64,000 nucleotides of DNA, from contig NZ_CP069362.1 in the NCBI RefSeq assembly GCF_029910535.1, positions 2,380,242 to 2,444,241 on the forward strand, given 5' to 3'. The stretch comes from Marinitoga aeolica. Its GTDB lineage: Bacteria; Thermotogota; Thermotogae; Petrotogales; Petrotogaceae. The notes below the pieces were generated by a model. That model did not search any database, was not told where the DNA came from, and saw nothing but the letters and a program-made list of their open reading frames with translations. Made by a program: the position numbers and the translations under genes. The stretch's first letter is position 1; every line of letters starts with the position of its first letter. Positions 2,552-20,270 of the stretch are shown in pieces.

Positions 2552-2689
2552 TTAAGTTGTAAATTTTGGCCAGCTATCATCTGAACCACATCCAGCATAT
2601 TCACAAGATAATATAATTTGTGAATCTTTTACCAAATGTTTTAAATAAGGATTAATTAAAGGTTGTTTAATTTCAATTTTCTGTTTCAT
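2552..2689 (-). CDS. RiPP precursor peptide I (45 aa)
   Basis: ATG at 2689 sits 7 bases after a strong AAAGGAGGA ribosome site. The 45-residue product begins MKQKIEIKQPLINPYLKHLV, a charged leader-like half, and ends with the core-like tail CEYAGCGSDDSWPKFTT. The tail holds the only two cysteines (C29 and C34), two Asp, and a Trp-Pro. It lies directly upstream of a radical SAM/SPASM maturase and an ABC exporter, the usual position of a RiPP precursor. I do not recognise the family. Precursor identity is inferred from size, composition, ribosome site and neighbours. Confidence 0.75.
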   Translation of the reverse strand: MKQKIEIKQPLINPYLKHLVKDSQIILSCEYAGCGSDDSWPKFTT

Positions 2690-2747
2690 TGAAGTATTCC
2701 TCCTTTCTAAATTAAAATTACTCAATAATCTTTAGCACTAAAAAAAA

Positions 2748-2759
2748 TCAGCCGGCTGA
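2748..2759. promoter_or_regulatory. 12-bp perfect palindrome with A/T-runs
   Basis: TCAGCCGGCTGA is an unusually GC-rich palindrome between the pheromone-like gene and precursor I. On the minus strand it is followed by a run of Ts, so it could be a weak terminator or attenuator between the two genes, or a protein-binding site. Confidence 0.4.
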
Positions 2760-2789
2760 AAAATTTTAATTTTAGTTTATAAACACATC

Positions 2790-2840
2790 GTATTACAAAA
2801 AATCATATGTTATAATGTTAATAAAACAATTGAGTCTAGA
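2790..2840 (-). promoter_or_regulatory. Putative promoter of RiPP operon I
   Basis: On the minus strand this block reads ACTCAATTGTTTT, then, after a short gap, TTATAACATAT. It resembles the better conserved blocks at 14384-14447 and 19664-19727, which read ACTCAGTTATTTGT and TTATAGCA and hold the same place between the pheromone-like gene and the RiPP operon. The spacing here is 8 bases shorter. TTATAA may serve as the -10 element. Confidence 0.4.
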
Positions 2841-2848
2841 GATGTTTT

Positions 2849-2980
2849 TTATTCATAAATTTCAGTTTGAATTTGAGGATTTGATGAATTGGTTGATGAA
2901 TAATCATAATCATCTTCAGCATATAGTATATTTGAGAATAGAAAAAGTATAATTAATATTGATACTATAATTTTTTTCAT
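2849..2980 (-). CDS. Small secreted peptide, candidate pheromone 1 (43 aa)
   Basis: ATG at 2980 follows GGGAGGTGAT; an in-frame ATG at 2986 is too close to that site. The product starts with a clear signal peptide (MKKIIVSILIILFLFSNILY, then AED) and has a polar tail, DDYDYSSTNSSNPQIQTEIY plus E. Two paralogues (14474-14608, 19754-19885) share the signal peptide and the N-[PS]-Q-[IV]-Q-x-E tail core but differ at the last residues. All three are divergent from a TPR-like protein gene or its remnant. This is the architecture of Phr-type pre-pheromones paired with TPR receptors. The secretion call is strong; the signalling role is inference. Confidence 0.75.
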   Translation of the reverse strand: MKKIIVSILIILFLFSNILYAEDDYDYSSTNSSNPQIQTEIYE

Positions 2981-3005
2981 CCCCATCACCTCCCAATTAT
3001 TATTT

Positions 3006-3033
3006 ATTTTAGCAATTCTAACATGATTTTCAA
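3006..3033 (-). promoter_or_regulatory. Putative promoter of pheromone-like gene 1
   Basis: On the minus strand: TTGAAA, 16 bases, TAAAAT. The same hexamers with the same spacing and the inner bases CATGTTAGAA recur before the two paralogous peptide genes. The -10 lies very close to the ribosome site, so the transcript would have a very short leader; part of the conservation may be an operator. Confidence 0.5.
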
Positions 3034-3257
3034 CTATTACTATAATGTTAACAAAGCTTTATTTATCAGGGTTTTGTTTTTACGATAAAATTACATTTAT
3101 GTTATAAAGTTTTTTGTAACATTATTTGTGAATTGCATAATACATTTTAATAGTATATTTTATATACTAATTCTTTTTATTTCACAATCTAAAAAATAGC
3201 AAGAATTATGATTTTAAATTTTTGTAAATTATGTAACTATTTGGTTGGTGATAATAT

Positions 3258-4861
3258 ATGAAGATTAATAATATGTTTCTAAAAAAGATTATAGATATAG
3301 TCGAGTACGGAAGTTTTTCAAAACCAATTGTGAATTATATTGAAAGTAATATTAACGATATTTCATTAAAATATTATATTTCTTTATTAAAATCAAAATG
3401 GGAGATGGATTTTTCTTCTGCTATTTACTATGCAAATAACTCTATTTCAACAACAACAACAACAACAATACTAAAGGAACTTTCAAGATATGAACTTGTG
3501 TTGTTGTATTCAAGAATGAATAATTTTGATAAATCAAAAAAAGTTTTCAATACACTAAAAAATAATATAATCAATATTTCACCGTATGCAAGAAGAATAA
3601 TTATACCTGGGTTAAAAGCCTTATCAGAGAAATTAAATCAAAATTTTGAGATTTTAAAATGTTATGGTGATTTATATGAGGAAAGTTATGTTCAAAAAGC
3701 AATAATAGAATATTCAAAGGCCAGAAGATTATTGTCTGAAAAAAATATGATGAAGCTTATAATAATTTTTTAAAAGGTTTTTCATATGCTAAAAAATTTA
3801 ATCACCCTTCAATGATGTGTGCAGGTTTAAATTCTGCAACGTGGTGGATAAGGAATGAAGATAAGAAAAAAGCTTTAATTATTGCTAATTTACTGGAATA
3901 TTATATTGGTTATTATTTCGATGATTTTAATTATATATCTAATTGGATTGATACTATTATAAGTGTAAAAGAATTAAACAATGATATAAGAGTTTTTGGC
4001 CTTTTAGAAATTATACATAACGCTTTAATATTATTTCCGGATTTAAAAATACTTATTGAAAATATGCAATGCCCAGATTTTAAAATAGAAGAATATACAC
4101 TAAATAAAAAATTGAATTATTTTATTTATAAAAAAAGTAAAAAAAGATTGAAAGGTAAAACATTAAATGTTGTGGAATTAAAAAGATTTATTCAAAAATA
4201 TGGTTTAACATATAAGAAAACATATCCATATGAAATAAAAAATGAATTATATAAAATACATATAAATAAAACTTTTAAAGAAAACATAATCAAATTTAAA
4301 AAGAAAAATAAAATAAAAATACAAGAATTATTTTTTGCAACATATTCATCATTAATAGAAAAACCATATTTTACAAAAAGTTGCATTTTAAAATTGGTTT
4401 TTGAAGGAGATAAAGATAAAATCATTAAATATTTCTCAAGTAATTATGAGAAAATGTATTTTTTTAACTTAATGCTATCTGAATTTAAGGTTAAAGAAAT
4501 TGAGAAAAGGATAATGAATCCTGATGATTTTGAAAAGATAAAACCTAATGTATCTCCATTTTTTGTATCAAGAAAAAAACTCATCTTTAATCTTTTAAAA
4601 AATGCGAAAAATTTTAAAGAATTTATTCTTAAATATTTCGAACTCAACGAGGAAGAAATAAGAACTTTTGATGTGTTTTTAAGAAATTGTGTTCGTTATG
4701 ATATAATATGGCCAATTACGCCTTATCCTAAAGGAAAGGTTCGTGATTTTGCAATTAAATATGGTCTTGGTCAAAAACGCGTTGCTTTAGGATATTATTC
4801 TTTTGAAGATGCTGAACGAAAACTTCTTGATTCTATTATTGAGAAGTTTTTAAGATTATAA
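3258..4861 (+). pseudogene. TPR-like helical regulator, copy 1, one-base frameshift
   Basis: Two overlapping reading frames (3258-3773 and from about 3755 to 4861) together match the intact 533-residue paralogue at 14879-16477 end to end. The break lies in a run of seven As at about 3739-3745: one more A restores the sequence LSEKKYDEAY and a full-length protein of about 534 residues. The N-terminal part is helical and TPR-like. The C-terminal part is nearly identical to copy 2 at the DNA level. It is divergent from pheromone-like gene 1, as receptor genes often are from their peptide gene. It may be a true pseudogene, a homopolymer sequencing error, or a gene rescued by transcriptional slippage. 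No known DNA-binding domain is certain. Confidence 0.75.
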
Positions 4862-4872
4862 ACTTTATTAAG

Positions 4873-4950: not shown

Positions 4951-4996
4951 TAAAGTCCATAAAAGAGACCATAAAAAATTTTGTGTAAATAAAAAT

Positions 4997-5033: not shown

Positions 5034-5066
5034 TTCTGTTTTTAACAGCGTATTTATAATTTAACT

Positions 5067-5243
5067 TCAATTTTTGTATTTCCATATGTTAATTATTGTT
5101 ATTTTTAATAAAATATATCCTATAACAAACCAGAATATAGCATTTAATGCTGAAACTGATGCTGATATTCCCGATAATGTCATTGTTTGAATTAATAAAA
5201 ATATAAATATAATTGAGAATTTATACAAAAACGAACTATTCAT
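5067..5243 (-). CDS. Small two-helix membrane protein at the end of RiPP operon II-B (58 aa)
   Basis: The ATG at 5243 overlaps the stop of the ABC ATPase gene (ATGA), a sign of translational coupling. The 58-residue product has two hydrophobic helices (about residues 6-25 and 31-50) and a basic end, IWKYKN. I do not recognise the family. Its coupling to the ABC-2 type transporter suggests an accessory membrane subunit or a self-immunity protein; that role is inferred from position only. Confidence 0.65.
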   Translation of the reverse strand: MNSSFLYKFSIIFIFLLIQTMTLSGISASVSALNAIFWFVIGYILLKITIINIWKYKN

Positions 5244-5962
5244 TTTATTAATTCCAGTAATCTTTCTTCATTTTTTCTCGTTGTTTTTTCCAGTAATTCT
5301 TCTGTTTTTATGTCTGCTGTTATTTCTCCTTTTTTTAATACCACTATTCTATCGGTTTTCTCTATTTCACTTACATCATGACTTGCTAATATTATTGTTT
5401 TTCCATTTTTGGATAATTCTTCCATCATTTCATATATTTTCATCTTTGTTTCTATATCCACTCCATTTGTCGGTTCATCTAATAAATATATTTCCGCTTC
5501 TTTTATTAATGCTCTTGCTAAATTTAATCTTCTTTTCATTCCTGTTGATGCTTCCATATATTTGATTTTTCTGTTTTCATATAACCCCATCTCTTTTAAT
5601 CCCTTTTCTACTTTCTTTTTTAATTCTTTTCCTGTTAGATTATTTAACATTCCAAAAAAATTTAAATTTTCTTCTAAATTCAATCTATAGTAAAATGACC
5701 TTTCATTTGATGTTGCTATTGATATTAATTTTTTTATTTGTTTTGATTCTTTTTTTATGTCATATTCTTTTATTTTTATTTCACCGTCATCTGGTATTAT
5801 AAACATCCCTATTGTTTTTATTAATGTTGTTTTTCCTGCTCCATTTGAGCCGAATATTGTTACTTTTTCTCCTCTGTTTATTGTAAGATTTATGTTTTTT
5901 AATGCTTTTATCCCATTTTTGTATATCTTTGTCAGATTTTTTATTTCTATTATTTTTTCCAT
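5240..5962 (-). CDS. ABC transporter ATP-binding protein (RiPP operon II-B)
   Basis: A 240-residue ATPase with Walker A GSNGAGKTT near residue 38, a modified signature STGMKRR in place of LSGGQ, Walker B IYLLDEPT and a switch His in LASHDVSE. This is the CcmA/drug-export type of ATPase that partners ABC-2 permeases, here the gene 11 bp upstream. Together they likely export, or give immunity to, the product of the 6790-6951 precursor. The ATPase call is certain; the substrate is inferred. Confidence 0.92.
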   Translation of the reverse strand: MEKIIEIKNLTKIYKNGIKALKNINLTINRGEKVTIFGSNGAGKTTLIKTIGMFIIPDDGEIKIKEYDIKKESKQIKKLISIATSNERSFYYRLNLEENLNFFGMLNNLTGKELKKKVEKGLKEMGLYENRKIKYMEASTGMKRRLNLARALIKEAEIYLLDEPTNGVDIETKMKIYEMMEELSKNGKTIILASHDVSEIEKTDRIVVLKKGEITADIKTEELLEKTTRKNEERLLELIK

Positions 5963-5973
5963 TTTTTCACATC

Positions 5974-6786
5974 CTAATATTGCGATATTGTGCCATATTT
6001 TCTTGCTTTATCAAAACTGTTTTTAAACCAGTACATTCCTATTGGTAATATTATTATTGTCATTATAATCAATATTATTATATCCTCTTTTATTTGGTAT
6101 AAAGTATATCCATTTATTAATGTTTTTCTCAATCCATCCATTGCATATGTTGTTGGTAATATATAAGATATACCTCTTAACCATTTTGGTAATATTTCTA
6201 CTGGATAATATATACCAGAAAACATTCCTGTTAAGAATGAATATACCCAGCTCACAGGATCACCTTTTTTTGTTATTACAATAAATCCTGCACTTAATAA
6301 TCCTATTCCACTTAAACTTATCATTGTTATTATTAATAATATTATTGAAGATATTATATTCATTTTTATTTCTACATCAAATGTATATATTAAAAATACA
6401 AATACTATTCCAGTATTTAATATTGTAAATATCAATTTTGAGAATATAGTGTATATAAACACTTCCCATAATGGTGTTTCAGATAGAAGCAGGTATTCTA
6501 TTGTCCCCATTACCTGCTCCTGTCTTATTACACTTTTAAATGTTGTTAGAGAGAGAGTAGTATAACTCATAAATACGCTTCCAGATATGAAATATGCAAG
6601 AATATTTCCCCCATATTGTTCAATCATTGGAAAGTAATTACCCTGAGCTATGAACCTTCCCATGAATCCAAATTGTAATAATCCCAAGAATCCACTGAGT
6701 ATTCCCAGTACTGCTTGTGTTTTATAACTTTTCCATATGAGTATGTCTCTACCTAAAAAATATAGAAATTTTTTTATTGTTTTCAT
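5974..6786 (-). CDS. ABC-2 type permease (RiPP operon II-B)
   Basis: A 270-residue integral membrane protein with about six predicted helices and the ABC-2 family feature MFSGIYYPVEILPKWLRGIS before the last helices. The ATG at 6786 follows the precursor stop by 3 bases, so the two are probably translated together. It forms the membrane half of the exporter whose ATPase is encoded just downstream. The substrate is probably the modified peptide from the adjacent precursor, judged from operon order. Confidence 0.88.
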   Translation of the reverse strand: MKTIKKFLYFLGRDILIWKSYKTQAVLGILSGFLGLLQFGFMGRFIAQGNYFPMIEQYGGNILAYFISGSVFMSYTTLSLTTFKSVIRQEQVMGTIEYLLLSETPLWEVFIYTIFSKLIFTILNTGIVFVFLIYTFDVEIKMNIISSIILLIITMISLSGIGLLSAGFIVITKKGDPVSWVYSFLTGMFSGIYYPVEILPKWLRGISYILPTTYAMDGLRKTLINGYTLYQIKEDIIILIIMTIIILPIGMYWFKNSFDKARKYGTISQY

Positions 6787-6789
6787 GAC

Positions 6790-6951
6790 TTAAGAATCAC
6801 ACCAATCCCAGAACCCTTTATCTTCTCCTTTGCATTTAGCATTTTGTTCACATCCTTGATTACTACATTCATCACAGTTTTCTACTTTATCTTTTCCAAA
6901 ATCACAAAATGAAAATAAACTTTCTTCTTTTGGTTCATTTACGAATTCCAT
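6790..6951 (-). CDS. RiPP precursor peptide II-B, Cys-rich (53 aa)
   Basis: ATG at 6951 follows GGAGGCGAAAAA; an in-frame ATG upstream of that site is less likely. The 53-residue product has an acidic leader-like start (MEFVNEPKEESLFSF) and a tail with six cysteines: CDFGKDKVENCDECSN, GCEQNAKCKGED and WDWCDS. Several Cys have a nearby Asp. It overlaps the 3' end of the maturase gene by 17 bases and precedes an ABC exporter. The position and composition make it a strong precursor candidate for the two tandem maturases upstream. I do not recognise the family. Confidence 0.75.
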   Translation of the reverse strand: MEFVNEPKEESLFSFCDFGKDKVENCDECSNQGCEQNAKCKGEDKGFWDWCDS

Positions 6952-8275
6952 TTTTTCGCCTCCCATATGTTTTTTCTGTTAATAATATCATTTCTTCTAA
7001 ATTATATTTTATTGGAAGACATCTTTCCCTTCCGTATTCTATTACACTATATTTTTCTGCTAATACTTTACCCAATATACATCCTCCCATACAATACGGT
7101 AACACTTTACAACTTTTACATTCTTCATCAAATGGATCTATTGCGAGCCATATGTTTTTTCTGTAGTTTAATTTCATTTTACCATTTTCTTTTAATTCGC
7201 CAATTTCTTTTGAAATACCACCAATTTCTCCCCAACATTTGTATAATTTCCCATCTGCATCTATTACTAATGAATTTATACTTGTCGCATCACATCTTGC
7301 TTGATTTATTTTTAAAAATGGATTGAAATTATAGTAATCTATCTTTTCTATTATATAATTATATAATTCACTTTCTATTTTGGCGAATTCTTTTAATGTG
7401 AATGATTTCAATTTTTTATTATCTCCCATTTCACCCTGTCTTAAATCTATTTCCACCTTTAATCTATCTTCAGATATTTTATCTATTAATCTTTTTATAC
7501 TTTCTATATTGTGTGGAAATACATTAATTCTTATTTTTACAAAAATTTCTTTTGATGCATTTTTTATATTTTCATATATTCTTTTAAATGTTCCTTTTCC
7601 ATTTTTTAATAATCTTAATTTATTGTGTTCTTCTTCTGTTCCATCCAGCGTTATTATTAATTTTTTTATTCCAGAATCTTTCAGTTCTTTTATGGTCATT
7701 TTATCAAGTAAATATCCATTTGTTATAATAAATGCATCATATTCCACTTTTTCTTTTTCACAAATCTTTTTTATTTTTTCGCTTAATTTTTTAATTTTTT
7801 CTTTTTCTAATAGCGGCTCTCCACCCCAAAAAGTTACACTAAATATTTTTGGCTTTTTTTCTTCTATTTTTTCTTTTACCAGTGTTATTATTGAGTCTAT
7901 TGTATTTTCCTTTATATTGTTTATCTTAAAAGGTTTTATGCTTATTTCTTTTGCCTGGTTTTGATAACAATATTTACAATTAAAATTACAATTGGTTGTC
8001 ATTGTCACTGTTAAATGAAAATAATCGTTTGAAAATTGAAATTTTTTATATTTTGCTATTATGTCGCTTAATTCGTCTTTATCATCTTCTATTATAAATC
8101 CACCTTTTTTAAGTATTTCTATATCCTTATCAATTTTTATTTTGCCTGATAATATTTTTTTTATTTTATCGACATTTTTCTTTTCTACTTTCAATATTGC
8201 ATTGGTCATTCCATTAAAAAGAAGAAGACTACCGTCTTCTTTTTCAATTAACGTATTATACTGAGATGATTTCAT
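6935..8275 (-). CDS. Radical SAM/SPASM peptide maturase II-B2
   Basis: A 446-residue enzyme. The N-terminal about 80 residues form a small domain ending in GGFIIEDDKDEL, as in many peptide-modifying radical SAM proteins. CNFNCKYC (Cys96, 100, 103), FWGGEPLL and the SPASM cysteines (CDATSIN, YKCWGE, CKSCKVLPYCMGGC, RERC) follow. Its ATG overlaps the stop of the preceding maturase (ATGA), so two related enzymes are made together. They may act in turn on one precursor or form a pair. This is one of three members of the H-x-K-x-R subclass in the island. Confidence 0.92.
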   Translation of the reverse strand: MKSSQYNTLIEKEDGSLLLFNGMTNAILKVEKKNVDKIKKILSGKIKIDKDIEILKKGGFIIEDDKDELSDIIAKYKKFQFSNDYFHLTVTMTTNCNFNCKYCYQNQAKEISIKPFKINNIKENTIDSIITLVKEKIEEKKPKIFSVTFWGGEPLLEKEKIKKLSEKIKKICEKEKVEYDAFIITNGYLLDKMTIKELKDSGIKKLIITLDGTEEEHNKLRLLKNGKGTFKRIYENIKNASKEIFVKIRINVFPHNIESIKRLIDKISEDRLKVEIDLRQGEMGDNKKLKSFTLKEFAKIESELYNYIIEKIDYYNFNPFLKINQARCDATSINSLVIDADGKLYKCWGEIGGISKEIGELKENGKMKLNYRKNIWLAIDPFDEECKSCKVLPYCMGGCILGKVLAEKYSVIEYGRERCLPIKYNLEEMILLTEKTYGRRKNGIRK

Positions 8276-9567
8276 TTAACCACCATCTTTTTCTCAAATT
8301 TTTTTACTCTATACCATAATTTTATAAAACTTTCTGTTTCTTTTTTTTCTTCAGGACAACCTTTGCTTCCGCGAAGTGCAGCATTTCTACATCCACCATG
8401 ACATAAAGGCAATATTTTGCATTCTTTACAATTTTTATCTTCATATCCATTATAACTATGCCATTTTAACTGTTTTTTTGTTTCTAATTTTATTTTTCCA
8501 TTTTCTATTTTCCCCATTTCCATTCCTTCTTCTACTGCAACTGTACATGGATATATTTCCCCTTCTGGACCAATTACCATATTATATACATTATCAAATT
8601 CGCAATACATATCTCCATTTAATATTGGTAACATTACTTTAAATCCTCTATTTATTGCCATTTCATATAATTTTGAGAGTTTTGTAAATGAATTTTCTTT
8701 TCTGAAATCTCTGACGTGTATATGAAATTCTTCATTCCTTTCTGATGCTTGGAATATCCATCTAAAATATATTTTCATTCTTTCTTTTGGAAACTTCTCT
8801 AAATAATCAAATAATTTCTCTATTTTTTCATAATTTTCAGGACCTACATTTACTCTTATTGATATATTTGTTTCTTTTGTATTTTCAAATAACGTTTCTA
8901 TTCCTTCTATTATTTTTTTAAATGTTTTTCCTCCACCAACTAATGGTCGATATTTATCGTGTGTTTCTTCTATTCCATCAAGAGTTATCTGAACATTTTT
9001 TATTTTTAATTCATCAAATTTTGATATATCTATATAATTCAATAAATATCCATTTGATGACATTGATGAAAACAGTTCTGCTTCACTTTCATCTATTATT
9101 TTTTTATTTATATATTCAATGACTTTGAAGTTCATCAATGGTTCTCCACCAAACCAACCTATTGATATTATTTTTTTATTCTTGCTTATGTTGATAATAT
9201 AATCTGCTATTTCTTCTGCTTTTTCTATTGTCATTATTTTATTTCTTTTTGTTTCATAACAATATACACAATCAAAATTGCATTGGAAAGTTGGAATTAT
9301 TGTAAACGTCGCTCGAGAATTATCAAATCGCGCTCTATAATTTCTCATTTTTATTTCTTCATATTCATTATAATCTTTTTCTATAATATATCCACCATAT
9401 TTTAATTGTTCAAATAATTCATCATCAACTATATTCCCTTTTAATATTTCTTTTATTTTTTGAACATTTTCACGTTTTACTTCAGCTATTGCTCCTGTTC
9501 TTAAGTTAACTAATACCGGAACTTTATCTATTTCTAAAAAGTAATTGTAATATGATTCTTTATACAT
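8272..9567 (-). CDS. Radical SAM/SPASM peptide maturase II-B1
   Basis: ATG at 9567 is preferred over the GTG at 9576 because it lies 5 bases after AGGTGG. The protein of about 431 residues has an N-terminal domain ending GGYIIEKDYNEY, the CNFDCVYC motif (about Cys96, 100, 103), WFGGEPLM, and SPASM cysteines (YCEFDN, YPCTVA, CKECKILPLCHGGC). It is the first gene of operon II-B. The 274-bp gap upstream (9577-9850) has no gene; it holds a TATAAT-like site and should carry the promoter. It likely modifies the 53-residue precursor together with the next enzyme. Confidence 0.92.
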   Translation of the reverse strand: MYKESYYNYFLEIDKVPVLVNLRTGAIAEVKRENVQKIKEILKGNIVDDELFEQLKYGGYIIEKDYNEYEEIKMRNYRARFDNSRATFTIIPTFQCNFDCVYCYETKRNKIMTIEKAEEIADYIINISKNKKIISIGWFGGEPLMNFKVIEYINKKIIDESEAELFSSMSSNGYLLNYIDISKFDELKIKNVQITLDGIEETHDKYRPLVGGGKTFKKIIEGIETLFENTKETNISIRVNVGPENYEKIEKLFDYLEKFPKERMKIYFRWIFQASERNEEFHIHVRDFRKENSFTKLSKLYEMAINRGFKVMLPILNGDMYCEFDNVYNMVIGPEGEIYPCTVAVEEGMEMGKIENGKIKLETKKQLKWHSYNGYEDKNCKECKILPLCHGGCRNAALRGSKGCPEEKKETESFIKLWYRVKKFEKKMVVK

Positions 9568-9850
9568 TTTTTCCACCTGCTATTATAAAGATTTAGTTTT
9601 TATTTATTAATTATAATAATTTTAACAAAGAATATATATAATATAAATAACGTTAATGTAAATTTCTCTTTTCTTAAATTTAATAATTTTACTTATTTAT
9701 TTTATCAAATGATATGTTTTTATTGTTAATTATTTAATTTATATTATACAATATTTGATATATTCTCTTTGTGAATGAGGTTAAGAAAATTCAGGAACTT
9801 TTTTGTGTCCATTTACAAATTCTATATGTTTTTACTAATATCTTTCTAAT

Positions 9851-11834: not shown

Positions 11835-13118
11835 TTATTCAAGTTTTAATTCATAAACTTCAAATATAAAAAGATTTTTATCTTCTTTTTTTTCTATTTC
11901 GTTTAATACACCATAATACTTATCTTTCATTTTAAAAAAATGTATTGCTTTATTCAAAATTTTATTTATGTTACCTGTTTCAAGATTTATTTTATAAATG
12001 TTTCCATTAAAAAGAAATATTTCAAATTGATTTTGTAAGTTCAAACTAACTTTAAAAGGTGTATTTGAACAGAGAAATGTAGCATAATCGGATTTTTTTA
12101 ATTCGCTTTCCCATGATATTTTAAATTTATTATCTATTATTTTTCCTAATATTATTTTTGTTGTACTATCTTCCTGCACTTCTATTAATATTTTTTCATT
12201 TTTATAGGTATTATAGTGATAATTTATATTTCCTTCTTTCAAAAATGGATATATTTCTTCCATATTTATATTTTCTATTTTATTATTATCGAGATTATAT
12301 CTTTTTATATTTATTTTTCCACCATAATTACCAAAATATACATATTTTTCATCTTGATATATATATGTATAATAGTTCATATCTGAAAATATTTTTTCAT
12401 CTTTCTTTATTAATTCATAGTTTTTTGCATCAAATGTGTGTTTTAACTTTATGTATTTACTGTTTGAACCAAAAAAAGATGTCACACTTTTTTCTGGTAT
12501 TGTTTCGAATAGATATAGTTTATCTTTATACTCTGCCATTTCTAATATCCCTGAAAAATCTTTTAATGTTATTAATTCTTTATACCAGTTTAAATCTTTA
12601 TCCACTATCATTACCGTTCGTTCTGATTCATTTACTCCTACACTCATTATTATTTTATCTTTCAATTCATAATCAATCATAACTGCAAATGACTTTACTC
12701 CTAAATTAAGCTTTTTGTTAAATATATATTTTCCTTCTTTTCTTATATATTCATTTATTTCCATATCTCCATTTTTTTCATTTCCACATATTATCCAGAA
12801 TTTATCATCAAAATTGTATACTGTTATTATTGTTGCACCTGTAAGTCCTCCGATCTCATATAATGCTGGAGCACGCATTTTTATTGTTTGTTTTGTATTA
12901 TTTTTTAAGGAGTATATGCGTGTCTCAAAATCTTTTTCAGTAGTTACAACAAATGGTGTAATTATTGCTTCATTTTTTGTAAATGTTGCTATTAATTTTG
13001 GTGGTTTTTTTTCATTTTCTATTTCTATCTCAATTCTTTTTATCATTTTTAATCTATCAGAAAATAAAGAAATTGATATTGTTAATATAAATAAAATCAT
13101 TAATATATTTCTTTTCAT
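11835..13118 (-). CDS. Secreted beta-rich protein of unknown function in RiPP operon II-A
   Basis: A 427-residue protein with an N-terminal signal peptide (KRNILMILFILTISISLFS). The rest is made of repeating short strands with aromatic and Lys-rich turns (KFWIICGNEKNGD, KYVYFGNYGGKINI, KIILGKIIDNKFKISWE), like a beta-propeller. No catalytic motif is visible. It starts 4 bp after the maturase stop and ends 65 bp before the precursor start, so it belongs to the RiPP operon. It could bind the mature peptide, help its secretion or protect the producer. I do not recognise the family. Confidence 0.75.
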   Translation of the reverse strand: MKRNILMILFILTISISLFSDRLKMIKRIEIEIENEKKPPKLIATFTKNEAIITPFVVTTEKDFETRIYSLKNNTKQTIKMRAPALYEIGGLTGATIITVYNFDDKFWIICGNEKNGDMEINEYIRKEGKYIFNKKLNLGVKSFAVMIDYELKDKIIMSVGVNESERTVMIVDKDLNWYKELITLKDFSGILEMAEYKDKLYLFETIPEKSVTSFFGSNSKYIKLKHTFDAKNYELIKKDEKIFSDMNYYTYIYQDEKYVYFGNYGGKINIKRYNLDNNKIENINMEEIYPFLKEGNINYHYNTYKNEKILIEVQEDSTTKIILGKIIDNKFKISWESELKKSDYATFLCSNTPFKVSLNLQNQFEIFLFNGNIYKINLETGNINKILNKAIHFFKMKDKYYGVLNEIEKKEDKNLFIFEVYELKLE

Positions 13119-13122: not shown

Positions 13123-14352
13123 TCATCTCCCTACTTTTAATTTTTCTACTCCTATTTTTGTTAGGTTGCAAGAAATACTTCGGCTTTTACTTTTTGTTAA
13201 TAATTCATATGGGCATCCACCACCGCATATATTTCTCAATTCGCATAAACCGCAATCTTCTTCTATTTTTTTAACTACTTTCTTATAAAATTCCTTTTTA
13301 TAGTTAATAAATTCTTCCCATTGCATCCCCACTTCTCCAAGTTCATAGTCTTTTTCACCTGTGAATCTCTGGCATGGGTATATTTTTCCATCTATATCTA
13401 TTGATACTATTCCCAACCCCGCTCCACATGGATATTTTTTAATTTCTCCTTTTTTTATAGTTTCCCATACTCCACTTATATTTAACGGGATAAACCTTTT
13501 ATCTTTTTCTTCTATTATTTCTTCAACTTCTTTGTATAATTTTTTCTTTTCTTTTTCTGTCCATTTTTTTGTGTAAGGGTATGATGCAATCGCAAAAGAA
13601 TAGCCACCAACATTTAGCTCTTTTATAAAATGTTCTGCTATTTTTTTAATTTCTATTTTCTGATTTGTTACTGTTGCTCTAACGTTTAACTTTTTCCTTT
13701 TTTCCAGTATTAACTCTATATTTTCTGCTATTTTTTCATATGATCCCTTTCCTCCAACAAATGGCCTTTGAAAATTTTGTATATACTCACAACCATCTAT
13801 ACTTAATGTTAATGAAAAATTTTCTTTGATTAAAAAGTCTATTATTTCTTTATCCATTATCGTCCCATTAGTGGTTATTGAATATCCAATCTTTTTGTTA
13901 TATTTCTTTCCTAATTTTTTTGATAATGCCACGCTTTCTTTTATTTTTTTGAATTCAAGTAATGGTTCTCCACCAAAAAACGTTATTGTTATTTTTTTCT
14001 TTTTTGTATTTGAAAATATATATTCTAAACTTTCTTTTATCAATTTCATATTCATACTTTCTGGTTTCTCTTTATGAGCATAGCAGTATATACATTCAAG
14101 ATTACATGCTTTTGTTATATTTAATATAATATTTGATGGTTCAAATATTATGTCTGAATTATAGAATTTTTCGCTTTCTTTTATTTTTTTATTGATTATA
14201 TTTTTTAATGTTTTTATATCTTTTTCAACATCTTTATTTTTTTTATTTTCTGTAAGATGTGAATAGGCTATTTCATCTAGTTCGACTAATGTTACACTAT
14301 CAAGGTCCAATAGATACTTTCTTTTATTATTTTGATAGAGTTTATATTTCAT
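13123..14352 (-). CDS. Radical SAM/SPASM peptide maturase II-A
   Basis: A 409-residue enzyme with CNLECIYC (Cys83, 87, 90), FFGGEPLL and SPASM cysteines (YPCGAGLG, YPCQRFTG, CGLCELRNICGGGC, SISC). It shares SIDG...IQNFQRP with the operon I enzyme, so the two are closer to each other than to the other three maturases. It is the first gene of operon II-A, 121 bp downstream of pheromone-like gene 2, and probably acts on the CxnD-rich precursor at 11560-11769. Confidence 0.92.
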   Translation of the reverse strand: MKYKLYQNNKRKYLLDLDSVTLVELDEIAYSHLTENKKNKDVEKDIKTLKNIINKKIKESEKFYNSDIIFEPSNIILNITKACNLECIYCYAHKEKPESMNMKLIKESLEYIFSNTKKKKITITFFGGEPLLEFKKIKESVALSKKLGKKYNKKIGYSITTNGTIMDKEIIDFLIKENFSLTLSIDGCEYIQNFQRPFVGGKGSYEKIAENIELILEKRKKLNVRATVTNQKIEIKKIAEHFIKELNVGGYSFAIASYPYTKKWTEKEKKKLYKEVEEIIEEKDKRFIPLNISGVWETIKKGEIKKYPCGAGLGIVSIDIDGKIYPCQRFTGEKDYELGEVGMQWEEFINYKKEFYKKVVKKIEEDCGLCELRNICGGGCPYELLTKSKSRSISCNLTKIGVEKLKVGR

Positions 14353-14473: not shown

Positions 14474-14608
14474 TTATCCTCTGGAATTTTCAATTTGAAC
14501 TTGAGGATTAGTTGAATCAGTTTTATATTTATCCTCATTATCTCCTGCAAAAATAATATTTGTTAACATTAATAAAAAAATAATAAATAAAATTAATATT
14601 TTTTTCAT
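14474..14608 (-). CDS. Small secreted peptide, candidate pheromone 2 (44 aa)
   Basis: ATG at 14608 follows GGAGGTGATAGG. The 44-residue product has a signal peptide (MKKILILFIIFLLMLTNIIF, then AGD) and a polar tail (NEDKYKTDSTNPQVQIENSR, then G). The middle GDNEDKYKTDS is shared with pheromone-like peptide 3 and the N-P-Q-V-Q-x-E core with both paralogues; the last residues are unique. It is divergent from the intact TPR-like gene at 14879, its most likely partner. The secretion call is strong, the signalling role inferred. Confidence 0.75.
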   Translation of the reverse strand: MKKILILFIIFLLMLTNIIFAGDNEDKYKTDSTNPQVQIENSRG

Positions 14609-14626
14609 CCTATCACCTCCGTTATT

Positions 14627-14654
14627 ATTTTACTATTTCTAACATGGTTTTCAA
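14627..14654 (-). promoter_or_regulatory. Putative promoter of pheromone-like gene 2
   Basis: TTGAAA, 16 bases, TAAAAT on the minus strand. The 28-base block is identical to the one at 19904-19931 and close to 3006-3033. Confidence 0.5.
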
Positions 14655-14878
14655 GCATTTTTGGCTATTTTATAATTCTTTATTTATGGTATTTTTAATT
14701 TTTATATTTTCTCATTTTTTTATTAACTCCATCTTGTTACTTTATGTTAATATTAGCTATTTCCTTTTTCTTAATATTTTTAATTTAATCTTCTTCATTT
14801 TGTTTTTGTAAAAAATTACAAAATAAATCAGAGATTTTTAAGTAAAAATATGATTACAAATTTATTGAGGTGTTTTTA

Positions 14879-16477
14879 ATGAAAAATAATATTTCTTTAA
14901 AATCCTTGATTGATATCATAAGTTTTGGATATTATTCTTATCCAATTATTAATTTCTTATATTTAAATATAAATGATATTTCTTTAAAATATTATCTTTT
15001 GTTATTAAAATCCAAATGGAAAAAAGATTATTATTTAGCTATTGATTATTCTAAAAAAACTATTTCAACAACAACAACAACAACAATATTAAGAGAACTT
15101 GCAAGATTTGAACTTGTTTCTTTATACAATAAAGTTGGGAAATATGATTTAGCAAAAAAAGAAATTAATATTTTAAAAAATAATTTTGATAAACTTCCAT
15201 CATATGCAAGATATTTAATGGTACCAGGGTTAAACTTGCTCAATAAATCATATAACATAACTGATAATTTTAAAGTTTATTCAGACAATTATATTGAAAA
15301 TGATTTAGATAAAGCTATTTTGATTTATTCAAAAGCAAGAGATTTCATTAAAGAGAAAGAATATTCTAAAGCATATAAAAGATTTATTGAGGGATTTTTT
15401 CTTTCTAAAAATTTCCCTCATCCTACTATGATTTGTAATGGTTTAAATGGTGCTGCGTGGTGGATAAGAGAAGTAGATAAGAAGAAAGCGTTAGTTGTAG
15501 CTGATTTATTAGAGTATTATGTTGGTTATTATTTTGAAGATTTACCTAAGATATATAATTGGTTTGATACTATTTTTGAAGTAAAGAAAATTAATAATGA
15601 TATAACAATATTTGATATATCGAGTATTGTTATTAAGCTAAATAAATTAAATAAGGTTAAAATAAAAAAACAGTTTTTCCATTTTATTCCTGATATTTCT
15701 TCATCAACGTATAATATAACCAATGAATTAAAAAATTATATTTTAAAATATGTTGATTTAATGGTTAAAAAAGGAATAATAAATTCCAAAAGTATATTAA
15801 AAATCATAAATTCAAAAAAAATAAGTTATACCTCTAGAAAACCATATGCTATAAAAAATGAATTGTATAAAATGTATATAAATAAAACTTTTAAAGAAAA
15901 CATAATCAAATTTAAAAAGAAAAATAAAATAAAAATACAAGAATTATTTTTTGCAACATATTCATCATTAATAGAAAAACCATATTTTACAAAAAGTTGC
16001 ATTTTAAAATTGTTTTTTGAAGGAGATAAAGATAAAATCATTAAATATTTCTCAAGTAATTATGAGAAAATGTATTTTTTTAACTTAATGCTATCTGAAT
16101 TTAAGGTTAAAGAAATTGAGAAAAGGATAATGAATCCTGATGATTTTGAAAAGATAAAACCTGATGTATCTCCATTTTTCATATCAAGAAAAAAATTAAT
16201 ATTTAATCTTTTAAAAAATGCGAAAAATTTTAAAGAGTTTATTCTTAAATATTTCGAACTCAATGAGGAAGAAATGAGAACTTTTGATATGTTTTTAAGA
16301 AATGGTGTTCGTTATGATATAATATGGCCTATTATTCCAAAAGTTGATGGTAATTTGAAATCTTTCGCTTTAAAATATAATATTACTCAAAAACGAGTTG
16401 CTTTAGGATATTATTCTTTTGAAGATGCTGAACGAAAACTTCTTGATTCTATTATTGAGAATTTTGTGAAAATATAG
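14879..16477 (+). CDS. TPR-like helical protein, candidate pheromone receptor/regulator (intact copy 2)
   Basis: ATG at 14879 lies 8 bases after TTGAGG; the GTG at 14870 overlaps that site. The protein of about 532 residues is almost wholly helical. Hairpins such as ELARFELVSLYNKVGKYDLA and ARDFIKEKEYSKAYKRFIEG have TPR spacing. There is no signal peptide or membrane helix, so it is cytosolic. The C-terminal 210 residues are nearly identical to copy 1 except for a 20-residue island (about PKVDGNLKSFALKYNITQKR) that could be a helix-turn-helix. Divergence from a secreted-peptide gene recalls RRNPP receptors of Firmicutes, but no standard N-terminal HTH is present. A (ACA)6 run encodes six Thr near residue 63. 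Confidence 0.7.
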   Translation: MKNNISLKSLIDIISFGYYSYPIINFLYLNINDISLKYYLLLLKSKWKKDYYLAIDYSKKTISTTTTTTILRELARFELVSLYNKVGKYDLAKKEINILKNNFDKLPSYARYLMVPGLNLLNKSYNITDNFKVYSDNYIENDLDKAILIYSKARDFIKEKEYSKAYKRFIEGFFLSKNFPHPTMICNGLNGAAWWIREVDKKKALVVADLLEYYVGYYFEDLPKIYNWFDTIFEVKKINNDITIFDISSIVIKLNKLNKVKIKKQFFHFIPDISSSTYNITNELKNYILKYVDLMVKKGIINSKSILKIINSKKISYTSRKPYAIKNELYKMYINKTFKENIIKFKKKNKIKIQELFFATYSSLIEKPYFTKSCILKLFFEGDKDKIIKYFSSNYEKMYFFNLMLSEFKVKEIEKRIMNPDDFEKIKPDVSPFFISRKKLIFNLLKNAKNFKEFILKYFELNEEEMRTFDMFLRNGVRYDIIWPIIPKVDGNLKSFALKYNITQKRVALGYYSFEDAERKLLDSIIENFVKI

Positions 16478-16580: not shown

Positions 16581-16585
16581 AAGTT

Positions 16586-16696
16586 TTAGTTTAATTTAGA
16601 AGATGTGCCATTACAACAATTTGAAACTCCACCTACGCCACATTCTGCGGTATATCCTATTTTTTTAACTTTTAATGGTTTTAAAATTTCTCTCAT
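16586..16696 (-). CDS. RiPP precursor peptide III (36 aa)
   Basis: ATG at 16696 follows a perfect AAGGAGGTGG ribosome site inside the end of the ABC gene and overlaps its stop by 4 bases. The peptide starts MREILKPLKVKKIGYT and ends with the core-like AECGVGGVSNCCNGTSSKLN, with three Cys, Gly-rich and Ser/Thr-rich. It is the last gene of the operon after a maturase and an exporter and is followed by a strong terminator. It has no Cys-x(n)-Asp pattern, so its modification should differ from that of precursor II-A. Family not recognised. Confidence 0.72.
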   Translation of the reverse strand: MREILKPLKVKKIGYTAECGVGGVSNCCNGTSSKLN

Positions 16697-18326
16697 TCTA
16701 CCACCTCCTTCCTTTCCTCAAGAAATTTATTATCAATTATGTTATAAATTTTATCAGCAATATCATCAAATAGATTTTCATGGGATACAACCAATATTAT
16801 TTTTTCCTTTTTTATTTTACTCAAATATTTTTTAATATTTTCTTTAGTTTTATAATCAAGGTTTGAAAGAGGTTCATCTAATAATAAAATACTTTTATTT
16901 TTTGAAAAATACAAAACTCTTGCCATATGTATTTTTTGTTTTTCACCTAATGAAATATTTAAATTTTGAAAATCTACTTTTTTATCTAAATTGTTTATAT
17001 TTAGCATAGAGATTATCTCTTCTAAATAGTTAGAATCTTCTGCATTATTAAATATAATATTTGTTTTAACATCTCCCTCAAAAAGATATATTGGATTATA
17101 TAAATACGAACAATTCTTAATAAAGTCTTTAGAAAAATAAAATACAGAATTCTTATTATTTTTTTTGATCATTTCAGGTGAAGATATTTGAGTTAATAAA
17201 TTAAAAATAGTTGTTTTTCCAGCTCCATTTTTTCCTTTTATAATATATAATCCATTCCTTTTATTTAATATAAAGTTTTCTATTTCTAATAATTTTTCTT
17301 TATTTTCCGTATATATTGAGCAATTCTTTATTTCTATAATATTATCTTTATTCTCATTCTCTAAGTTAATATTTTCTTTTTCTTTATAATTATAGAAATC
17401 ATTTATTCTATTCAATATACCTTTGTTTGAATGTTTTTCCACAATCGCTTGAGCAATTTGACTTAATGGTTCAAAAAGCATACTTAAATATTGAGAAAAC
17501 ATTATTAAACTACCTAATGTCATTTTTTGTGAAATTACGTAATATGCACCAATACCCATTATTGTAAAAGAAGATAATGTATTTACAAACATCGGTACTT
17601 CTTTTCCAAAATTATACCAATAAGAATATTTTAATCTAATATTTTTCCATTCTTCTAATTTTTTTTCAAATATCTTTTCAAAGTATTGTTCTTTCTGATA
17701 TAGATTAATATGAATTTTTCCTTCTATATTCTTATTTGCATTTGTAATAAATTCATCAGCTTTAATTCTTTCTAACTTTGAATATTGTTCTAATTTTTTC
17801 TTATTTATTCCCATTGAAAATACATATAAAGGTATAAATATTGCACTTATCAAAGATAAAATTGGATTTATAAAAAATAATATTATATATCCTGAAATTA
17901 CTCTAAGTATTCCAATAGTTAAAGTTCCTAAATAAGTAACTACCACATTAGCATATGTTCCGCTATCTGAAATAAGATAATTTAATAATTGTCCTTTATC
18001 AAAATTTTTGTAATTATATTTTTTTATTTTAAAAATTTTTTTCAGTAATATTTTTTTTAATTTCACTGAAAAATATAACGGTATTTTATCCCATTGATAC
18101 TTTAAGAAATAAAAAATATATGAATGTAAGAATACTGAAAATCCCAATCCCAAAAATAACCAAATTTTTAATTCTTTAATATTATTAGCACTTATAATAT
18201 TATCAATTAAATATTTAGTGAATATCGGAAAGATATAATATAAACATATACCAATAAACGAAAAAAATACCAATTGTATTATTTTAATTAAATTTTTTTT
18301 TCTTTAAAATCTAGAATTTTTCTCAT
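16693..18326 (-). CDS. ABC exporter, fused membrane and ATPase domains (RiPP operon III), apparent frameshift at the 5' end
   Basis: The main frame gives about 526 residues from a TTG at 18273: membrane helices, then an ATPase with GKNGAGKTT, LSLGEKQKI-like signature (ISLGEKQK), and Walker B SILLLDEPLSNLD. The TTG lacks a ribosome site. A strong GAGGAGG lies 9 bases before an ATG at 18326; that frame reads MRKILDFKEKK and leaves the main frame at a run of nine As (18293-18301). One more A would join it to NLIKIIQLVFFSF. So the real start is probably 18326, with a sequencing error, mutation or slippage at the A-run. It likely exports the peptide of the overlapping precursor gene. Confidence 0.82.
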
Positions 18327-19626
18327 TATTTATTGCCTCCTCATAATACAACTTTATCAAGTCATTCAAAATATATTTTTCTGGTATACATTTTTTAAGT
18401 TTTTTCGTTTCTAGTAAAAAACATCCACCCATACACCATGGTAACACTTTACAATTTAAACATTCTCCTGAAAATGGATTTCTTAATATTTTTTTATAAT
18501 AATTCTTTTCATTCAAATTCAAATCTCCATTATTATCAATATATCCCATTTCAAAAGTCTTGTCATTTTCACTAGACGTACAATGATATAGTGTACCGTT
18601 TGTTTCAACTAGAAAGGTATTTATTCTATCAAAACCACAATTATAACCTTTTATATCATAAAATGGAACTTTTTTTCCATATTTTAATAAAGTTTTATAT
18701 ATTTTTAATAACACTTTGGAATACTCTTTAATATCCTTATAAAAAATATCTTCATTGGTATAATTTATATCAAATTTTTTTGCTTCATTAAAATGTAGCA
18801 TTACATTTTCTTTAGATAAAATTTTATATTTTTTTAACTCATAAAGATAATTTTCTATATTTTCATTATTTTTATTTATATTTAATCTTAAAATTATATC
18901 TACTTCAGGCCATATATCAAGAAGTAATAAAATATTTTTTATAATTTGGTCATATGTACCTTCTTTATTTCTTAATATTCTGCTCTTATTATGTTGCTTT
19001 TTATCCCCATCTAAAGTGATCTGGATTGTTTTTATTTTGGTATTTTTTAGTTTTAATATATTGTTTTTAGTTAGTAAAAAACCATTTGTTGTTAAATTAC
19101 TAAAAAAATTTATATCTTTATAGTTGTCTTGGATATAATTTTCTATTTCAATTATTGCATTAAGATTTAATAATGGTTCTCCACCAAACCAATGGATATT
19201 GAGAATATCTATATTATTTTCTAATACTGTTTTATCTATCCATTTCTTTATAGAGTTTATTGTGTTATCTTCCATCATTTTTTTATTATGACTTTGATAA
19301 CAATAACTACATAAAAAATTACAATCATTTGTAGTTTTAATTGTTAGAGAATATATTTTATTATCAAATTTATTTTTATTATGTATATAATGCAATCTAT
19401 CCATTTCATCTAATTCTTTGTTTATCCACATACCATATTCTATAAATTTTTCCTCTATTTCTGAATTTTCAATAAAAAAATTTTTGTAATTCTCATAATA
19501 TTCCTCATTTAATTCAAGCATTCCATGGGTGTATGTATTAAAAATAATCCAATTATCATCTTTTTTTATTTCAACATTAAATTTTGAATGTTTATATTTT
19601 TGAGATTTATTTTTTATCTTATCCAT
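18304..19626 (-). CDS. Radical SAM/SPASM peptide maturase of RiPP operon III
   Basis: A 440-residue enzyme with CNFLCSYC (Cys102, 106, 109), WFGGEPLL and SPASM cysteines (YNCGFDR, YHCTSSEN, CLNCKVLPWCMGGC, KKC). ATG at 19626 follows GAGGTGACA. The motif TLDGDKKQHNKSR places it with the two II-B enzymes. It is the first gene of operon III after pheromone-like gene 3 and overlaps the ABC gene start, so maturase and exporter are coupled. Its substrate should be the 36-residue peptide at the operon end. Confidence 0.92.
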   Translation of the reverse strand: MDKIKNKSQKYKHSKFNVEIKKDDNWIIFNTYTHGMLELNEEYYENYKNFFIENSEIEEKFIEYGMWINKELDEMDRLHYIHNKNKFDNKIYSLTIKTTNDCNFLCSYCYQSHNKKMMEDNTINSIKKWIDKTVLENNIDILNIHWFGGEPLLNLNAIIEIENYIQDNYKDINFFSNLTTNGFLLTKNNILKLKNTKIKTIQITLDGDKKQHNKSRILRNKEGTYDQIIKNILLLLDIWPEVDIILRLNINKNNENIENYLYELKKYKILSKENVMLHFNEAKKFDINYTNEDIFYKDIKEYSKVLLKIYKTLLKYGKKVPFYDIKGYNCGFDRINTFLVETNGTLYHCTSSENDKTFEMGYIDNNGDLNLNEKNYYKKILRNPFSGECLNCKVLPWCMGGCFLLETKKLKKCIPEKYILNDLIKLYYEEAINNEKNSRF

Positions 19627-19663
19627 AATGTCACCTCACTAACCTAATTTTATATATAATATA

Positions 19664-19727
19664 TATTGTATTATAAAACCTCATATTGCTATAATTTAAA
19701 TATATTCCACAAATAACTGAGTATAAA
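19664..19727 (-). promoter_or_regulatory. Conserved promoter block of RiPP operon III
   Basis: On the minus strand ACTCAGTTATTTGT, then ATTTAAATTATAGCA and GAGGTTTTATAATAC; nearly identical to 14384-14447 although the flanking genes differ. Confidence 0.55.
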
Positions 19728-19753
19728 TATTTTTTGGTATTCATAAGTTATTT

Positions 19754-19885
19754 TTACTCTGAAAATTCATGTTGAATTTGAGAATTGATTGAATCAGTTT
19801 TATATTTATCTTCATTATCACCTGCTAAAATAATATTTGTTGAGATTAATAAAAAGATAATAAGTAAAATCACTATTTTTTTCAT
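19754..19885 (-). CDS. Small secreted peptide, candidate pheromone 3, partner gene lost (43 aa)
   Basis: ATG at 19885 follows GGAGGTGATGGG. The product has a signal peptide (MKKIVILLIIFLLISTNIIL, then AGD) and the tail NEDKYKTDSINSQIQHEFSE. It is closest to peptide 2, yet the non-coding DNA further upstream is closest to module 1, so this module is a mosaic. The divergent TPR gene is reduced to a 114-bp remnant. It may therefore signal through one of the other two receptors, or be obsolete. Confidence 0.72.
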   Translation of the reverse strand: MKKIVILLIIFLLISTNIILAGDNEDKYKTDSINSQIQHEFSE

Positions 19886-19903
19886 CCCATCACCTCCACT
19901 GTT

Positions 19904-19931
19904 ATTTTACTATTTCTAACATGGTTTTCAA
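19904..19931 (-). promoter_or_regulatory. Putative promoter of pheromone-like gene 3
   Basis: TTGAAA, 16 bases, TAAAAT on the minus strand; identical to 14627-14654. Just beyond TTGAAA the sequence switches from module 2 type to module 1 type. Confidence 0.5.
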
Positions 19932-20156
19932 CCATTACTGTAATGTTAACAAAGCTCTATTTATAAGGGTTTTCTTTTTGCGATAAAATTACATTTCTGT
20001 TATAAAATTCATGTAACATTATTTTGTGAATTATATAATACTTTTTAATAGTTTATTTTATATACTAATTCTTTTTGTTTCACATTGTAAAAAATAGCAA
20101 AAATTTTGGTTTTAAATTTTTGTGAAGTATGTAACTATTTGGTTGGTGATAATATA

Positions 20157-20270
20157 TGAAGATTAATAATATGTTTCTTAAAAAGATTATATATAGTCGA
20201 ATACGGAAGTTTTTCATAACCAATTATGAATTATATTGATTCTATTATTGAGAAGTTTTTAAGATTATAA
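20157..20270 (+). pseudogene. Remnant of a third TPR-like regulator gene with large internal deletion
   Basis: The first 80 or so bases match the start of copy 1 (both begin MKINNMFLKK) with a 2-base deletion that shifts the frame. The last about 35 bases match the end of copy 1 (DSIIEKFLRL and stop). The join falls at TTGA, present at both breakpoints in copy 1 (3340-3343 and 4827-4830), so about 1.5 kb was probably lost by recombination at a 4-bp microhomology. No functional product is expected. Confidence 0.85.

Follow-up and report, generated by a model that had tools for sequence, protein, structure and literature searches.

What does a bacterium of the Thermotogota gain from placing a gene for a short secreted-type peptide, three times over, in divergent orientation to one encoding a tetratricopeptide repeat (TPR)-type protein? 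The question is raised by the final 64 kb (in record coordinates) of the 2,444,241-bp single-contig genome of Marinitoga aeolica (NZ_CP069362.1, positions 2,380,242 to 2,444,241; 64,000 nucleotides, hereafter the window), where each such pair heads a predicted radical S-adenosylmethionine (SAM) operon for a ribosomally synthesized and post-translationally modified peptide (RiPP). Two sources describe signalling by peptide pheromones through cytosolic TPR receptors as a Firmicutes trait (PMC9765709, PMC10075063), and the title of a third speaks of gram-positive bacteria (PMC12700828); the string "Thermotog" is absent from the main texts of all three. Literature searches, with a coverage that mostly leaves out subscription papers, returned no TPR-receptor peptide pheromone in Thermotogota among the reports listed. 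The analysis presented here strongly supports the modules as a genetic unit and leaves them unproven as a signal, and we consider it probable that each module is a peptide-pheromone switch setting transcription of the predicted radical SAM RiPP operon behind its peptide gene.

Three modules at the end of the genome

The three heads, each composed of a peptide gene on the minus strand and a divergent receptor gene or remnant on the plus strand, occupy positions 2849-4861, 14474-16477 and 19754-20270 (Table 1). The receptor gene is frameshifted in module 1, intact in module 2 and reduced to both ends in module 3, and the two surviving receptors are paralogues (74% DNA identity over 2,058 bp). 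Behind the peptides lie radical SAM genes (one, three and one in modules 1, 2 and 3, respectively), small Cys-containing open reading frames (ORFs) and ATP-binding cassette (ABC)-type genes, with the exporter of module 1 running across the left edge of the window (L022:17456-19405; L numbers denote sequence stretches around family loci, and G numbers Thermotogota genomes). All five radical SAM proteins exceed the Radical_SAM Pfam cut-off, three of them match SPASM at scores under its cut-off, and RiPP maturases top the NCBIfam models that they match, all under cut-off, while three small candidate precursor ORFs matched no NCBIfam family. A first-pass annotation of this stretch had drawn three peptide/TPR-protein heads, each with a radical SAM operon, and the ORFs, their paralogy, the leaders, the radical SAM scores, the small Cys ORFs and the ABC-type genes all bear out that picture.

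The layout seen in the window exceeds chance. A fourth head, located just outside it at 2377219, is 97.7% identical over 2,083 bp to window positions 2770-4852 and carries the same split in its receptor gene (L022), and it precedes a radical SAM/ABC operon different from that of module 1. At least five further receptor relatives lie outside the window (C1: 536033, 1372297, 1735465, 1741622, 1825229), and the head pair at 1735/1741 kb is 92.7% identical over 1,993 bp with different genes behind. Since the heads are near-identical while the genes behind them differ, the duplicated unit is the head, that is, peptide plus receptor. A genome search with the peptide alone yielded seven matches at E≤1.1e-6, followed by an eighth at E 0.19; all seven adjoin receptors, or a remnant in the case of 19754-19885. 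By coordinates, each is also located within 1 kb of a same-strand radical SAM domain, in a genome with 40 such domains over the Pfam cut-off. Among the named relatives found to carry the receptor gene family, Marinitoga lauensis is the nearest (best segment 86% identical). The same transposase-like ORF pair, recognized by eye, is found near two receptor loci (L023:17320-18734 and L025:454-1868) and is possibly linked to the spread of the heads.

Receptors, peptides and radical SAM genes across the Thermotogota

At E≤0.001, a profile of the receptor has matches in 60 of the 103 Thermotogota genomes, which represent 32 of the 38 genera, and homologues are also found under the names Dictyoglomaceae and Candidatus Atribacteria bins; mostly 14 candidates were scored per genome, making receptor copy numbers lower bounds. 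In the 60 stretches around receptor matches that were fetched for locus tests, a divergent secreted-type peptide ORF accompanies 56 of 76 testable receptors versus 5 of 519 control genes. The underlying test, the criteria of which were fixed after a first look at the loci, was a strict one: it demanded a leader-plus-tail ORF, divergent at 100–450 bp, and took as controls other genes of at least 250 aa in the same loci. The first-pass annotation had staked its proposal on such co-occurrence beyond this genome, and it is found. An adjacent gene for a short, predictedly secreted propeptide, one of the criteria for RRNPPA systems, is hence present. On the peptide side, a radical SAM match lies within 2.5 kb at 27 of the 52 receptor-plus-peptide loci, as expected from the earlier proposal, compared with 4/20 receptors without a peptide call and 4/416 controls; within 4 kb the corresponding figures are 30/49, 5/19 and 10/362. 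The radical SAM profile is narrow, having missed a real gene in L022, and none of these counts represents independent events, close genomes and paralogues being included.

The window peptides consist of a hydrophobic leader ending in YA, FA or LA and a hydrophilic tail of, for instance, 14 or 23 residues (cleavage site read by eye), secretion being predicted by our own hydropathy rule and not by SignalP. Throughout the peptide family the leader is of the cleavable type and the tail has a conserved end, and twelve family peptides display a purifying-selection pattern (mean proportion of nonsynonymous differences, pN, 0.24; of synonymous differences, pS, 0.47; 62/66 pairs), so the peptide coding looks constrained at the sequence level. 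The leader and tail bear on the idea that the hydrophobic peptide and the TPR protein might constitute a small toxin-antitoxin or addiction module carried along with RiPP operons. A short peptide with a hydrophobic stretch, a paired gene, and copies that duplicate and decay would suit such a pair, but a leader of the cleavable type would not, nor would a hydrophilic tail whose end is conserved, and the peptide is kept where the receptor is fragmentary or not found (module 3, L125, L128-L130, L132-L135), which is unlikely for a toxin. We therefore assign this explanation a very low probability.

A search with window peptide 2 returned 33 matches in seven Marinitoga genomes, of which, by coordinates, 30 stand beside a receptor or remnant, two at contig ends and one alone, together with a borderline match elsewhere (G005) that adjoins a receptor piece and a radical SAM gene. 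The solitary case (L125, G043:C49) combines a window-type peptide and promoter element with no receptor piece detected nearby, and is the sole orphan among 31 testable Marinitoga matches. The L085 peptide, from same-family relatives, has matches in 9 of 103 genomes, and 10 of the 11 places of this type that were fetched have a receptor piece nearby (L136 has none). Receptors reduced to fragments, often to both ends, beside a retained peptide are observed at 20156-20270 of the window and in L128-L130 and L132-L135, in Marinitoga and same-family relatives; L131 is cut by a contig end and was not counted as a remnant. The Marinitoga paralogue that bears a helix-turn-helix (HTH) domain has a peptide family of its own (...DSTEITQNAVVFTLNTFDINQ; L026:8935-9096), with relatives in L067, L068, L069 and L074.

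It may be argued that the TPR-HTH family regulates RiPP operons in response to something else, and that the peptide is simply an operon product, such as an envelope peptide, an immunity factor or a leader-type factor, and no signal. The peptide gene is the first one behind the promoter element, and its survival next to the receptor fragments listed above indicates that the peptide may serve without a receptor. Nonetheless, peptides accompany the receptor also at loci in which no radical SAM gene was found (25 of 52), the unit that duplicates is peptide plus receptor rather than peptide plus operon, and the genes behind the seven peptides of this genome look different while the peptide family is constant. 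On these grounds, a role of the peptide as a mere operon product appears unlikely.

A promoter element ahead of the peptide genes

An open-ended scan of the regions ahead of the peptides for -35/-10 pairs revealed a recurring 16-bp spacer beginning with RYCATRT. In the resulting element, TTGAMARYCATRTN9TANNAT, the part TTGAMA-RYCATRT spans the -35 hexamer and the first positions of the spacer. Because the pattern itself came from peptide promoters, whole-genome scans are its less biased tests. In this genome the element has eight exact copies, all of them preceding a peptide-side gene that lies opposite a receptor gene or its remnant. Six of these genes encode window-type peptides, one the L026-type peptide and one a longer secreted-type protein at 1824969. 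The last of these contains Cys (L025:9519-9986, G000 ~1824.5 kb) and stands, behind its exact element copy, in the place of a short peptide opposite the diverged receptor at 1825229. The Marinitoga form occurs three times in the window, with 0.00 expected in shuffles. Across the phylum, 33 of 103 genomes, from 16 of 38 genera, contain exact copies of a slightly wider pattern, 105 in total (reversed control: 2), and 32 of the 33 element-bearing genomes had a receptor match, G071 having none among the matches listed. Site placing covered 42 of the 105 sites, in ten near-complete genomes of one to three contigs: 30 lie within 500 bp of a receptor gene and 41 within 10 kb (one counted at 9,987 bp), in stretches that make up 1–10% of those genomes.

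A relaxed form of the element is present at 45 of 56 receptor-plus-peptide loci versus 2 of 554 control genes. Within the fetched loci, most of which were fetched for holding receptors, there are 78 sites, 63 of which lie opposite a receptor piece at a distance of up to 900 bp. The other 15 comprise two sites before window-type peptides (L125, L147), five before operon-type genes (a radical SAM gene in L080 and, by ORF look, genes in L082, L086 twice and L136) and eight that were left unassigned. In L166, a site with a receptor remnant directly precedes an ORF whose start resembles those of the window radical SAM proteins. No shared palindrome was seen in the sets of intergenic regions looked at. 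The IFSDEN-type peptide group (L023, L030, L064, L075) has no promoter element, and L023 shows TTTTGTTTAACAAAA in its place, a possible alternative site.

Receptor fold and internal HTH

The predicted model of the intact window receptor (from the ATG at 14879) comprises a TPR superhelix at residues ~1-270, an HTH region without reading helices at ~277-312 and a C-terminal helical domain at ~323-530, and the predicted receptor models reach pLDDT values of 90.6 and 89.2. TPR_12 is over its cut-off in one family member (38.9 vs. 30.1 bits), and the TPR superhelix that serves RRNPPA receptors as ligand domain is present, as a fold, in the models. The initial view of a secreted-type peptide paired with a divergent TPR-type protein in a Thermotogota genome thus holds in gene layout, hydropathy leaders and predicted fold. 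The window receptor matched no Pfam or NCBIfam family, and comparison of the family profile with the PDB returned no RRNPPA chain at E≤1, that is, no relationship detected at this sensitivity.

In the Thermotoga maritima member, the HTH match (285-334) follows the TPR match (148-212). HTH_26/HTH_3 matches fall after the TPR region, exceeding a cut-off in 4 of 10 scanned members, and the model of an HTH-bearing member places helices at 283-332. The segment that would read DNA is missing in one Marinitoga clade, which includes the intact receptor of the window: in the alignment this receptor fills 5 of 25 reading-segment positions, and it has no Pfam HTH match. Elsewhere in the alignment, all 25 positions are occupied in 44 of 76 rows and 19-23 of them in another 14, figures that express alignment occupancy only; L085 and L107:13005-14615 have the segment filled wholly or partly and no Pfam HTH match. 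Judged from its sequence, the window receptor hence has no complete Cro/C1 (XRE) HTH. The first-pass annotation had described a receptor lacking the usual N-terminal HTH; none is indeed N-terminal, but several relatives carry an internal Cro/C1 HTH after the TPRs, and what the window receptor's clade lacks is its reading segment.

The HTH-less Marinitoga receptors looked at also contain an in-frame ACA/ACT run encoding 5-10 threonines, of a length that varies by copy (window 3448-3468 and 15066-15086; L023, L024, L065, L066, L079). This run looks like a microsatellite in the TPR region, and none was seen in the HTH-bearing L026.

Comparison with known systems

Streptococcal Rgg-SHP systems with radical SAM RiPP (RaS-RiPP) operons resemble the modules in that a gene for a small secreted peptide is often placed divergently to one for a TPR-type regulator and the target is an operon for a radical SAM RiPP. 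These systems are backed by experiments, and cell-density dependence is reported for several RaS-RiPP products (PMC8092268, PMC13361665). The family described here belongs to a different phylum, with no sequence relationship detected, has its HTH mid-protein or missing instead of N-terminal, and combines a cleavable-type leader and hydrophilic tail with a promoter element of its own. The HTH-less form shares with Rap-Phr of Bacillus a TPR receptor without DNA-binding domain, a secreted propeptide and paralogue expansion within one genome. In the fold comparison, several structures tie as best match to the HTH-bearing member of the family, and one of them is 8rte, a peptide-bound phage Rap. Rap, however, has an N-terminal three-helix bundle, whereas in the HTH-less form here an internal HTH segment is missing and a helical domain of ~200 residues is retained at the C-terminus; rap and phr genes are arranged in tandem, and the genes here are divergent. 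NprR-NprX and PlcR-PapR likewise join HTH and TPR in one protein with a paired secreted propeptide, but in NprR and PlcR the HTH precedes the TPRs, and here it comes after. Three-helix-bundle (3HB) domains of Rap and NprR are mentioned in the RRNPP literature; the family here has neither an N-terminal HTH nor such a bundle. The modules, then, would work like Rgg-SHP with a RaS-RiPP operon and are, by the tests run, not RRNPPA members. The original analogy with Rap-Phr/RRNPP logic stands for fold and gene pairing, but domain order separates the two, and no sequence relationship was detected at the sensitivity of the profile searches.

In T. maritima (G090), one receptor of which matches THEMA_07735 of strain MSB8 at 100%, at least three receptors lie within 20 kb. 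One module has a peptide gene (L107:7236-7409), followed by a 31-aa Cys-containing ORF ending in CGGAGLVCGWCG, which we take to be TM1316, and then a radical SAM gene; it differs from the window modules in that the promoter element is missing. The TM1316 locus of T. maritima is reportedly the subject of work by Frock et al. in 2013, whose title names no receptor or pheromone. The T. maritima data fit a density- or starvation-linked switch and are no proof of one.

A model for the modules and its weighing

In the pheromone switch model, the peptide would be exported by Sec, as its leader ending in FA, YA or LA suggests, and its tail would accumulate outside or beneath the toga, with cell density as the presumed quantity sensed, and re-enter through an oligopeptide ABC importer. 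The genome has four SBP_bac_5 genes, which make import possible, no more. The returned tail would bind the TPR groove of its receptor. In the HTH-bearing relatives, the neighbouring receptor itself would read TTGAMA-RYCATRT, and the element reader would control, with either sign, the signal and, provided that the downstream genes belong to a single operon, the product as well; with the peptide gene presumably at the head of that operon, the loop would be autoregulatory. The HTH-less receptor of the window would act in a Rap-like manner, by protein contact, because the reading helices are missing in its Marinitoga clade, holding or releasing a partner that reads the element. The HTH-bearing Marinitoga paralogue (1372297 in this genome) would be the evident choice of partner and is intact in four of seven Marinitoga genomes. 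As reader of all elements it is a weakened candidate, being broken in G044 and G040 and not found in G042.

The element might instead be read by a separate regulator, or constitute a specialised promoter, with the receptors acting on whatever reads it and pheromone control being indirect throughout the phylum; the signalling part is common to this view and to the pheromone switch model. It would accommodate the retention of the element in the clade without reading helices and in G042, the inclusion of the -35 hexamer itself in the pattern, and the lack of an element at the member with the strongest HTH match, whereas the clustering of all but one of the 42 placed sites within 10 kb of a receptor-family gene is what a dedicated local reader predicts. 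We regard indirect control of this kind as a tentative alternative, with a minority chance of being correct.

Several observations weigh against the pheromone switch model. In the window itself only one receptor of three is unbroken, the strict test assigned no peptide to 20 of the 76 testable receptors, and the 25 of 52 loci with no radical SAM match within 2.5 kb indicate that RiPP-type operons are favoured neighbours and not the sole ones; the HTH-bearing Marinitoga paralogue (L026, L067, L068, L069, L074) has no radical SAM match within 4 kb. The element is lacking, even in relaxed form, at 11 of 56 peptide loci, among them the T. maritima module whose HTH scores highest, where HTH strength and element therefore dissociate. 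With one mismatch, its own-genome count is 10 versus 4 in the reversed control, and with two mismatches the loose form has five matches in the window against 1.44 expected, the two extra ones being at chance level. The window receptor is without reading helices, and G042 keeps its elements with no HTH-bearing paralogue found above the paralogue background. Foldseek gave no match at E≤0.001, its weaker matches being TPR proteins in general, in lists filled by the TPR part, such that absent RRNPPA chains mean nothing and no new fold is claimed for the C-terminal domain. Lastly, only receptor residues 441-532 covary with the peptide tail, and weakly so (r=0.35 and p=0.016 in the best of 11 windows, with no correction for their number; 18 of 21 modules, with L031 and L073 dropped for missing C-termini and L071 as a copy of L070), and L029 is a counterexample to tail-receptor pairing. 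Coevolution as proof of binding was rejected in view of L029 and the weak correlation; it would be no proof in any case, because gene conversion of the cassette middle alone would tie both ends.

Taken as a whole, a broader evolutionary reading is narrowly favoured. Under this reading, the Thermotogota would have their own peptide-pheromone family, apart from the Firmicutes RRNPP, with a mid-protein HTH, an element common to 16 genera and module-specific peptide tails. Marinitoga would have lost the DNA-reading helices once, after which the HTH-less receptor would have multiplied as a swappable peptide-plus-receptor cassette heading successive RiPP operons, and this HTH loss would parallel the step from HTH-bearing regulators to Rap.

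Table 1. Features of the three modules in the 64,000-nucleotide window
Feature	Position	Strand	Basis and remarks
Module 1 secreted-type peptide	2849..2989	-	43 aa from internal ATG at 2980; tail ...NSSNPQIQTEIYE
Promoter element of peptide 1	3006..3033	-	TTGAAAATCATGTTAGAATTGCTAAAAT (-35, spacer motif, -10); pattern scan
Module 1 receptor, frameshift-split	3258..4861	+	ORFs 3258-3773 and 3812-4861
Module 1 candidate RiPP precursor	2552..2725	-	CEYAGCGSDDSWPKFTT end; ORF reading, not family models
Module 1 radical SAM protein	1179..2447	-	Nearest NCBIfam model PapB, under cut-off
Module 2 secreted-type peptide	14474..14608	-	44 aa, tail ...STNPQVQIENSRG; ORF and peptide search; tail sequence of the peptide paired with receptor 14879-16477, GDNEDKYKTDSTNPQVQIENSRG
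Promoter element of peptide 2	14627..14654	-	TTGAAAACCATGTTAGAAATAGTAAAAT; pattern scan
Module 2 receptor, intact	14870..16477	+	ATG at 14879; Pfam scan, predicted structure, alignment
Module 2 radical SAM protein	13123..14352	-	Pfam/NCBIfam scans
Module 2 protein, signal-peptide-like start	11835..13118	-	Look-alike in L082 (N-termini by eye) directly behind promoter element
Module 2 candidate Cys-rich precursor	11560..11769	-	ORF; no NCBIfam family
ABC transporter ATPase	10587..11432	-	By sequence (by eye); presumed operon member
ABC-type permease-like membrane protein	9851..10603	-	By eye
Radical SAM protein (module 2)	8272..9576	-	Pfam; look-alike in L080 behind promoter element
Radical SAM protein (module 2)	6935..8275	-	Pfam/NCBIfam scans
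Candidate Cys-rich precursor	6790..6966	-	ORF; no NCBIfam family
ABC permease-like membrane protein	5974..6786	-	By eye
ABC transporter ATPase	5240..5962	-	By eye
Module 3 secreted-type peptide	19754..19885	-	43 aa, tail ...SINSQIQHEFSE; ORF and peptide search
Promoter element of peptide 3	19904..19931	-	TTGAAAACCATGTTAGAAATAGTAAAAT, retained despite receptor loss; pattern scan
Module 3 receptor remnant	20156..20270	+	~First 25 and last 11 codons, middle deleted; limits read from sequence
Module 3 radical SAM protein	18304..19626	-	Pfam/NCBIfam scans
Module 3 ABC exporter (membrane and ATPase)	16693..18273	-	Pfam scan
Module 3 candidate precursor	16586..16696	-	GYTAECGVGGVSNCCNGTSSKLN end; ORF; no NCBIfam family

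Implications

If the modules do act as pheromone switches, they would represent a second such family, in a thermophilic phylum, implying that this signalling logic arose or spread more widely, and they would provide the outer-sheathed Thermotogota with a peptide quorum-sensing family. The pheromone family may then explain the stationary-phase switch-on of a T. maritima locus of this kind. Such a family would offer synthetic peptides as a means to steer gene expression where genetic tools are scarce, and a direct route to switching on silent RiPP operons. Furthermore, the coexistence within one genus of receptors with and without the HTH, alongside the retained element, makes the origin of Rap-like receptors directly testable.

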